The notes below the pieces were generated by a model that was not told where the DNA came from, searched no databases, and saw only the letters and a program-made list of their open reading frames with translations. From contig NZ_VNHO01000009.1 of NCBI RefSeq assembly GCF_008124715.1, forward strand, positions 28,885 through 92,884: DNA of 64,000 nucleotides, read 5' to 3'. Shown here one piece after another: positions 35,487-37,167 of this stretch. A program made the position numbers and the translations under genes. Source of the DNA: Thermosediminibacter litoriperuensis (GTDB lineage Bacteria; Bacillota; Thermosediminibacteria; Thermosediminibacterales; Thermosediminibacteraceae). The stretch's first letter is position 1. Every line of letters begins with the position of its first letter.

Positions 35487-35912
35487 TTACTTCACGATCG
35501 CATACAGGAAATTAGCCATCAGGTGCTGAAATTCTTCGGTTTTCATGAGGCTTAAAAACAGCGGAATCCACTTGTCGGCAGGCAGTATTGTGCCATCCTG
35601 AGTAGTGTATTCGAGGTTTTTGCCTTCAAGCTTCATCTGCGCTTTTTCTGTGATTTGAGAAAAGCTCTCTAATGCGGACTTTGTAAGGTCTATGGAATTG
35701 GATATTTTATTCAGGGCCTCTTTTAGGTTTCCCGTGGCTATGGCCTGCCGGAGAAACTTTTTGCCGACAGCGGTGATTGAAACAGCTTCTTTTTCGGAAT
35801 TTCGCGCGCCTTCACCTTCGGCATTTGTTTCGTGCTTTTTAAGTTCATTTTTTATTAAACTTTCCTGTTCTTCAAGCTCTTTTAGCGCTTTTTCAAGTTC
35901 CTCTTTGTTCAT
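35487..35912 (-). CDS. Uncharacterised 141-residue helical protein
   Basis: No family recognised. The N-terminal third is a highly charged coiled coil (ELEKALKELEEQESLIKNEL), the rest is predicted helical with a hydrophobic C-terminus (WIPLFLSLMKTEEFQHLMANFLYAIVK). No signal peptide or cysteines. GGGGGG precedes the start at 35912 and a terminator follows. Upstream on the minus strand a CATATTATA occurs near 35951, similar to the -10 of mother-cell sigma factors, but no matching -35 was found. Confidence 0.75.
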   Translation of the reverse strand: MNKEELEKALKELEEQESLIKNELKKHETNAEGEGARNSEKEAVSITAVGKKFLRQAIATGNLKEALNKISNSIDLTKSALESFSQITEKAQMKLEGKNLEYTTQDGTILPADKWIPLFLSLMKTEEFQHLMANFLYAIVK

Positions 35913-36010: not shown

Positions 36011-36047
36011 AAAAAGCCCCGGATGTATATACTACATCCAGGGCTTT
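36011..36047 (-). terminator. Terminator of the first WWWW tiny gene
   Basis: On the minus strand AAAGCCCTGGATGTA pairs with TACATCCGGGGCTTT (one mismatch), followed by T5 (AAAAA at 36011-36015 on the plus strand). Confidence 0.85.
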
Positions 36048-36067: not shown

Positions 36068-36169
36068 TTAGTTGCCAAGAATTATTATGATTATCGGCAG
36101 GAAGAATATAATTATGATGATTGGGATGAAGATCCACCACCACCACTGGAAGCTGGTGAGTTCAGGCAT
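36068..36169 (-). CDS. Tiny membrane protein with WWWW motif (copy 1)
   Basis: 33 residues: MPELTSFQ, then WWWWIFIPIIIIIFFLP, then IIIIILGN. One extremely hydrophobic helix of Ile, Phe and Trp with a Pro at 16 and 25 and no charged residue after position 3. The start is supported by AAAGGAGGTG 6 bases upstream and the gene has its own terminator. A paralog lies 125 bases upstream on the same strand, sharing the core WWWW-x-FIPIIIIIFF-x-PIIII-x-LG. No known family is recognised. The size, hydrophobicity and promoter type suggest a small sporulation or membrane peptide (inference). Confidence 0.85.
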   Translation of the reverse strand: MPELTSFQWWWWIFIPIIIIIFFLPIIIIILGN

Positions 36170-36200
36170 TGCTGCACCTCCTTTCTACCGTCTCCTACTT

Positions 36201-36226
36201 CATAATATGCCTTAAGTAAAATGTGT
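36201..36226 (-). promoter_or_regulatory. Possible sigma-E/sigma-K promoter of WWWW copy 1
   Basis: On the minus strand CATATTATG (36201-36209) fits the CATANNNT -10 of the mother-cell sigma factors, and an AC lies 15 bases upstream (36225-36226). The start would fall about 25 bases before the ATG, as for copy 2. Confidence 0.45.
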
Positions 36227-36252
36227 GCTACTCCGGAGAAAGCTGCCTGGTG

Positions 36253-36286
36253 AAAAGCTCCGGAAGGCAGTGCCCCCGGAGCTTTT
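36253..36286. terminator. Terminator of the second WWWW tiny gene
   Basis: AAAAGCTCCGG (36253-36263) pairs with CCGGAGCTTTT (36276-36286). The minus strand ends in T4 and the plus strand in T6. Confidence 0.85.
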
Positions 36287-36294
36287 TTAAGCGT

Positions 36295-36414
36295 TTAGGC
36301 CGACTGACCAAGCACTATTATGATGATCGGGAAGAAGAATATTATTATGATTATGGGGATAAACAGCCACCACCACCAGCTGAAGCCGGAACCGGGTTTT
36401 GCGATTTCGGGCAT
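36295..36414 (-). CDS. Tiny membrane protein with WWWW motif (copy 2)
   Basis: 39 residues: MPEIAKPGSGFS, then WWWWLFIPIIIIIFFFP, then IIIIVLGQSA. Same layout as copy 1: MPE start, four Trp, two Ile-rich blocks split by Pro, and an LG near the end. AAAAAGGAGGTG lies just upstream of ATG 36414. It has its own promoter-like sequence and terminator, so the two copies are separate units and not an operon. Duplication with conservation of the core but divergent flanks argues that both are real proteins. Confidence 0.85.
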   Translation of the reverse strand: MPEIAKPGSGFSWWWWLFIPIIIIIFFFPIIIIVLGQSA

Positions 36415-36446
36415 CTTGGCACCTCCTTTTTAACCGTTTCTACTGA

Positions 36447-36473
36447 TATAGTATGCAAGGGATATTTTTGTGT
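36447..36473 (-). promoter_or_regulatory. Possible sigma-K-type promoter of WWWW copy 2
   Basis: On the minus strand CATACTATA (36447-36455) matches CATANNNTA, with AC (36472-36473) 16 bases upstream: the sigma-K consensus. The predicted start is about 26 bases before the ATG. Confidence 0.5.
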
Positions 36474-36656
36474 GAATGGAAGGAATGAAAAGGACTACCC
36501 TTTAATATAGAAAAAATTAACAAATTTATAATCATATAGGTTTATTGCCATAATAAAACGGAGTTACGAGAATTTTTCAGCATATTAATTCCCTTTAAGG
36601 TTATTCTAGTTATGGAGAAGAAAAACTGTGCCTTCTGGTGGCAAGGGAGTGATTTT

Positions 36657-36977
36657 ATGCTGTCTTTCAGGCCTTTTTTGGCTGGCGCCTTTGTCGCCGC
36701 GCTGGCTTATGTCCTGAGCCCTGAAGTCAAAAAAAGGGTCAGGCCCATGGTCGAGAAAGGCATGGAACGGATGTCGGGCATGACCGAAAAGGGAAAGGAA
36801 ACTGTGCTGGAAAAAAGGATGAAGACCGGAGACGAACAGGTGGACCAGCTGGGTTATTATGAGGAACTGGAGCGGTTGAAAGAAGAGAGAAACCAGTATT
36901 TGAATGAAATCAAGGAGTTAAAAAAATTGGTAAATCAACTGTATGATGAAATTAGGGAACTAAAAAACAAAAGCTGA
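36657..36977 (+). CDS. Small membrane-anchored coiled-coil protein
   Basis: 106 residues: a short N-terminal membrane segment (FRPFLAGAFVAALAYVL), a basic stretch, and a C-terminal coiled coil (YYEELERLKEERNQYLNEIKE onward). The layout resembles YtxH-like small stress or envelope proteins, but family membership is not certain. Start ATG 36657 with AAGGGAG upstream; a longer frame from 36612 lacks a site. Confidence 0.75.
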   Translation: MLSFRPFLAGAFVAALAYVLSPEVKKRVRPMVEKGMERMSGMTEKGKETVLEKRMKTGDEQVDQLGYYEELERLKEERNQYLNEIKELKKLVNQLYDEIRELKNKS

Positions 36978-37043: not shown

Positions 37044-37063
37044 TCTGCCAAAACTGAATAAAA

Positions 37064-37153
37064 ACTACCGGGGGTGCTGCGGAAAGCGGCTGAGACGGGA
37101 ATTATCCCGAACCCTTGAACCTGTTTGGGTAATGCCAGCGGAGGGAGGGTAGT
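37064..37153 (+). promoter_or_regulatory. TPP riboswitch (THI element)
   Basis: Contains the conserved thi-box segments GGGGGTGC, GGCTGAGA, ACCCTTGAACCTG and GGGTAATGCCAGCGGAGGGA in the right order. The closing stem P1 is ACTACC (37064-37069) with GGTAGT (37148-37153). It binds thiamine pyrophosphate and lowers expression of the downstream gene, here through the terminator at 37168. Confidence 0.97.
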
Positions 37154-37167
37154 TGCTTATTACGTTT

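Follow-up and report, generated by a model that had tools for sequence, protein, structure and literature searches.

Two short minus-strand genes in the 64,000-nucleotide stretch of Thermosediminibacter litoriperuensis DNA that we analyzed (the window) encode real, conserved single-helix membrane peptides, and sequence comparisons lend good support to their belonging to the mother-cell class of expression. Gene B (36068..36169) specifies a 33-residue peptide with one predicted transmembrane segment, MPELTSFQWWWWIFIPIIIIIFFLPIIIIILGN, and gene A (36295..36414) specifies a 39-residue single-transmembrane paralogue, MPEIAKPGSGFSWWWWLFIPIIIIIFFFPIIIIVLGQSA; both open reading frames lie where the original prediction had placed them. 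The prediction had also credited each gene with a strong Shine-Dalgarno sequence and a terminator, and we found both. The putative Shine-Dalgarno sequence AGGAGGTG is positioned 5 nt from the ATG in either gene (minus strand, 36175..36182 for gene B and 36420..36427 for gene A), with GGNGGT kept across the gene-B orthologues. Downstream of each stop codon is a GC-rich hairpin followed by a T-run, predicted to act as an intrinsic terminator: AAAGCCCTGGATGTAGTATATACATCCGGGGCTTTTT for gene B (36011..36047, minus strand), whose hairpin and T-run are retained in orthologues, and AAAAGCTCCGGGGGCACTGCCTTCCGGAGCTTTTC for gene A (36253..36287, minus strand). Because the gene-A terminator sits between gene A and the gene-B promoter, the two genes appear to be separate transcription units.

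The two peptides share a run of four tryptophans and an isoleucine-rich FIP-I5-FF-x-P-I4 core, and their helix begins at the tryptophans. Tryptophans favor the lipid-water interface, and a 20-residue segment of Ile, Phe and Val spans a bilayer. We counted about 20 consecutive residues without a polar face and, from sequence, a net charge of about 0 to -1. An AlphaFold prediction of peptide A alone gave one helix spanning residues 9-38 (mean pLDDT 84.9), so the assignment of these products to the membrane is backed by both their sequence and a one-helix model. The coat peptide that the original prediction named as another option is speculative.

Orthologues occupy a syntenic slot in eight of nine Thermosediminibacteraceae genomes, always with a pseudouridine synthase gene on one side and a gene for a membrane coiled-coil protein on the other. 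Both genes are found at this locus in G000, G001, G003 and G007, the last three providing the gene-A orthologues, and gene B occurs with gene A missing at the locus in G004, G005, G006 and G008. The ninth genome, G002, has a divergent copy, MTEVTRSGCNNWWWIFIVIFIIILLLCCCCSVFFAF, at another locus. Substitutions were most frequent at codon position 3 and least frequent at position 2, with 102/51/23 changes at positions 3/1/2 for gene A and 296/194/74 for gene B. Together with NG86 dN/dS values of 0.06-0.41 for the peptide genes, all below 1, this pattern argues that the peptides, beyond the DNA alone, are maintained. Variation within the helix is conservative and hydrophobic rather than residue-specific.

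Upstream of gene B we identified a -10 box of the sigma-K type, CATATTATG (36201..36209, minus strand), and a -35 element, CACA (36224..36227, minus strand), arranged as AC-N15-CATA. The -10 box is conserved in all eight orthologues as CATATTAT(G/A), with one reading CATATTATA. The AC at about -35 is likewise kept in 8/8, within an element that reads CACC or TACC in orthologues, and the bases between it and the -10 box drift. Within the 64-kb window CATATTATG has a single copy, at gene B, and the identical box, with AC-N17, lies upstream of yabG in 9/9 genomes. YabG is a protease unrelated as a protein to the peptides, and the likeness between the two genes is confined to the control region, with its -10 box and an AC at about -35. 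In B. subtilis yabG is controlled by sigma-K, and in C. difficile it is under sigma-E and sigma-K (PMC10681294). We also searched for a pairing of an AC-type -35 with a CATANNNT -10 that is suitably spaced, conserved and 30-80 nt ahead of the start, as in the sigma-K regulon, and found it in 8/8 orthologues of gene B and in 3/4 cases for gene A. A weight matrix trained on yabG promoters alone ranked the gene-B site third of ~128,000 window positions; since two AT-rich sites lacking CATA outranked it, we placed weight on the footprint instead of the matrix.

The gene-A control region can be read in two ways. Its candidate -10, CATACTATA (36447..36455, minus strand), and candidate -35, CACACA (36469..36474, minus strand), are arranged as AC-N16-CATA, and these elements overlap the TACTAT and TTCACA, respectively, of a sigma-A-like TTCACA-N17-TACTAT. 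The -10 candidate reads CATAGAATA in G003 and G007 and AATACTATA in G001, where AATA stands in place of CATA and the C is lost. On this evidence gene A could be under either sigma-E/K or sigma-A, and its promoter is less clear than that of gene B.

Both genes had originally been assigned a CATAnnnT(A) -10 with an AC 15-16 bases upstream, as used by sigma-E and sigma-K. The motif is present, as CATAnnnT(A/G), but by itself it occurs at chance level genome-wide: MACM-N13-15-CATANNNTR gave 59 matches vs 62 for a reversed control pattern, and we discarded this degenerate pattern for predicting sigma-K promoters across the genome. The promoter pattern draws its meaning only from its position, its conservation and its identity with the yabG promoter. 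We defined a footprint as AC-N14-18-CATANNNT or [TA]A[AG]CA-N14-17-CATA located 25-90 nt upstream of the ATG. It is present in 23/24 upstream regions of the peptide genes, compared with 1.0 expected from dinucleotide shuffles and with 6/147 ordinary genes of the same loci; the TARCA form entered this definition after data inspection, and the AC form alone accounts for 14/24 vs 0.8 expected. Because members of the same family are non-independent, 23/24 overstates the number of events, yet the agreement extends to at least three lineages. Spacings of 14-18 from AC to CATA in the members are compatible with the gap of 14-16 nt reported between the -35 and -10 elements of sigma-K promoters in B. 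subtilis (PMC517825). Promoters in the second class we searched, GTARCAYAT...CATACCAATG, have a partly sigma-E-like look.

No part of sporulation is less conserved than the late mother-cell genes, and annotation misses the small ones among them. The host genome encodes sigK, spoIIID and yabG. The original proposal of a sporulation-related role under mother-cell control gains from the footprint in three lineages, the -10 box identical to that of yabG and the presence of sigma-K, SpoIIID and YabG, but it is ambiguous with respect to the sigma class of gene A. Sporulation was not observed in Thermosediminibacter oceani (PMC3035372), and Thermosediminibacteraceae of heated sediments have been inferred to be endospore-derived (PMC9826295). 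We tried dpaA as a second sigma-K control, which failed, as a true DpaA is absent from these genomes. In four genomes a conserved GTCATA-TATA-GGTACGC lies upstream of sigK (L060-L063), and this is likely a mother-cell promoter of sigK itself.

We ran a profile search over 398 genomes of the phylum together with 13 from one other class, and it identified short relatives, such as MPDGCFGGWWWWILIIIIIILFFFCCFRRCD, in 6/13 of the second-class genomes, some of which carry two copies. Among the matches listed when GTDB contigs were scanned for a DNA pattern, most were unrelated proteins and one was a clear relative (L132); the pattern scan gave a tandem pair, MTELQKPGVIFGWWWVIIVIIILFLVLVFWPCSAFKA and MPELQKPGPIFGWWWVIIVIIILFLVLVFWPLSGL, in a Peptococcaceae MAG. 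Weak distant matches from an initial protein search (L003, L004, L012-L015, L019 and L020) proved spurious when read in all frames. For sequences this short and hydrophobic, a score alone is insufficient as proof of homology. The relatives outside the family have in common with genes A and B a polar start (M[PAT][DE]), a Trp run, their length and the promoter, and are likely homologous. We looked for shared neighbors beyond the family and found none, the flanking genes being unrelated; the common element would therefore be a regulon, not an operon. The family is narrow, so sporulation in general would not depend on its function.

Searches against Pfam-A and NCBIfam gave zero matches above curated cut-offs (the best E-value, 0.028, was far below cut-off), and our literature search found no description of such peptides, so the assertion that they fall in no described family holds for the databases and literature searched. 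We propose that they form an uncatalogued family of tiny peptides, present in several Firmicutes groups that are anaerobic and for the most part thermophilic, and of a kind itself known, the tiny mother-cell membrane peptides. One such peptide, SpoVM of Bacillus subtilis, acts at the outer forespore membrane and forms an amphipathic surface helix. Peptides A and B have no sequence relation to SpoVM and, in place of its amphipathic, curvature-sensing helix, have a single-pass helix that is hydrophobic throughout and carries a Trp belt. To our knowledge the YjcZ family has no Trp run, though YjcZ (NCBIfam TIGR01732, tiny_TM_bacill) is also tiny, with one hydrophobic segment. The TIGR01732 profile (cut-off, 21.35 bits) gave no match to the peptides with E-values as high as 10 allowed, no YjcZ scored above cut-off in the 14 genomes searched, and by sequence the peptides lie outside this family. 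yjcZ is a member of the B. subtilis sigma-K regulon (PMC517825).

Among the matches listed from the DNA pattern scan are three Clostridia proteins of 67-72 residues, rich in Cys, Gly and Asn (L158, L159 and L174), with the pattern WWWII(I/V)LLLI...CGC. They resemble A and B in having WWW and then an Ile/Leu run near the N-terminus, and in a strong Shine-Dalgarno sequence, but they are longer, with two hydrophobic runs and Cys/Asn/Gly-rich tails, and homology is not established. Upstream of them CAC(C/A) lies ~17 nt ahead of a GTATTAT(A/G) box, an arrangement that resembles the sigma-K-like element but varies in its first half. A 67-residue protein of a Bacillota MAG (L131:371, plus strand) has WWWIIILLCCCGGGGGG and a second hydrophobic run in a similar style, with CATA absent upstream.

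Divergent from the two genes is a gene for a membrane-anchored coiled-coil protein (36657..36977, plus strand, likely ATG at 36657) with a weak, below-cut-off match to YtxH. Upstream of it is CATATTAAT / GCATATTAAT (36581..36589, plus strand), whose core is conserved in 8/8 genomes; CATATTAAT resembles a sporulation-type -10, and the coiled-coil gene may itself be a sporulation gene, but a clear AC at -35 is absent. A TPP riboswitch (37060-37164, plus strand) lies ahead of a hydroxyethylthiazole-kinase-like gene. Downstream of gene B, a 141-aa open reading frame (35487-35912, minus strand), without a family match above cut-off, is found at the locus in G000 and G001 only and has CATATTATATAT upstream, at about 35957.

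We consider it probable that the mother cell makes these single-pass peptides after engulfment and that they serve as spore-envelope components, inserted into either the outer forespore membrane or that of the mother cell. Each has a polar N-terminus, which is short, then three or four interfacial tryptophans and one strongly hydrophobic Ile/Phe/Val helix, which in the Thermosediminibacteraceae members is broken by two prolines. Following synthesis in the mother cell, for which both time and place are read from the promoters, the peptides would insert, spontaneously or via YidC, into membranes that border the cytoplasm of the mother cell. Just two membranes could be reached from there, the outer forespore membrane and the mother-cell plasma membrane, and we conjecture that the former is the most likely destination, where the peptides might act as a bulk structural or surface-modifying component beneath the coat. 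A structural product needed at high dose fits with the late timing, the strong ribosome-binding sites, the separate terminators and the repeated duplication.

Of the alternatives we weighed, the least improbable, though still unlikely, is that the peptides are accessory subunits or regulators of a specific membrane protein in sporulating cells, in the manner of KdpF or CydX, with the coiled-coil protein encoded at 36657-36977 as a possible partner. That gene adjoins the locus in 8/8 genomes and has the conserved CATATTAAT upstream, but relatives outside the family have neighbors unrelated both to it and to each other, and the conservative hydrophobic variation of the helix is not the residue-specific kind. 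Next, and somewhat less likely, would be holin-like lysis peptides, expressed from sigma-K-type promoters, that oligomerize and open the mother-cell membrane so that the spore is set free. A late mother-cell-type promoter and a tiny, strongly hydrophobic helix with strong ribosome-binding sites would suit such a function; the lack of a holin-typical charged tail and the absence of lytic enzyme genes beside the loci argue against it.

We regard as very unlikely a role in growing cells as type I toxins or stress-related small membrane peptides regulated by antisense RNA. Small hydrophobic tandem paralogues and the passable sigma-A-like promoter of gene A are consistent with this, but the predicted 5' leader is short (roughly 25-30 nt) and leaves the strong Shine-Dalgarno sequence open, the sporulation-type footprint is common to several lineages, and an Rfam scan, covering known families, gave no match at the locus apart from the TPP riboswitch further on. 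Least likely of all is a two-peptide leaderless bacteriocin or other antimicrobial peptide: despite the occurrence of tiny, Trp-rich peptides in pairs, these are not cationic, the annotated neighbors include no immunity or export genes, and only one gene is present at half of the orthologous loci.

Beyond the favored role as spore-envelope components, a broader and doubtful proposal concerns a superfamily of 30-46-residue peptides with a Trp anchor and poly-Ile, distributed across several classes of Firmicutes and having only a mother-cell promoter as their common link. In thermophilic and anaerobic spore-formers these peptides would build a layer within or upon the outer spore membrane, and the Cys-rich tails of some lineages would cross-link this layer to the coat. 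For Thermosediminibacter, our data add to the evidence that the genus retains a late mother-cell program, despite spores being unseen in T. oceani. Promoter and Trp/Ile architecture together would also allow spore-envelope peptides to be listed for thermophiles that are uncultivated or hard to sporulate.
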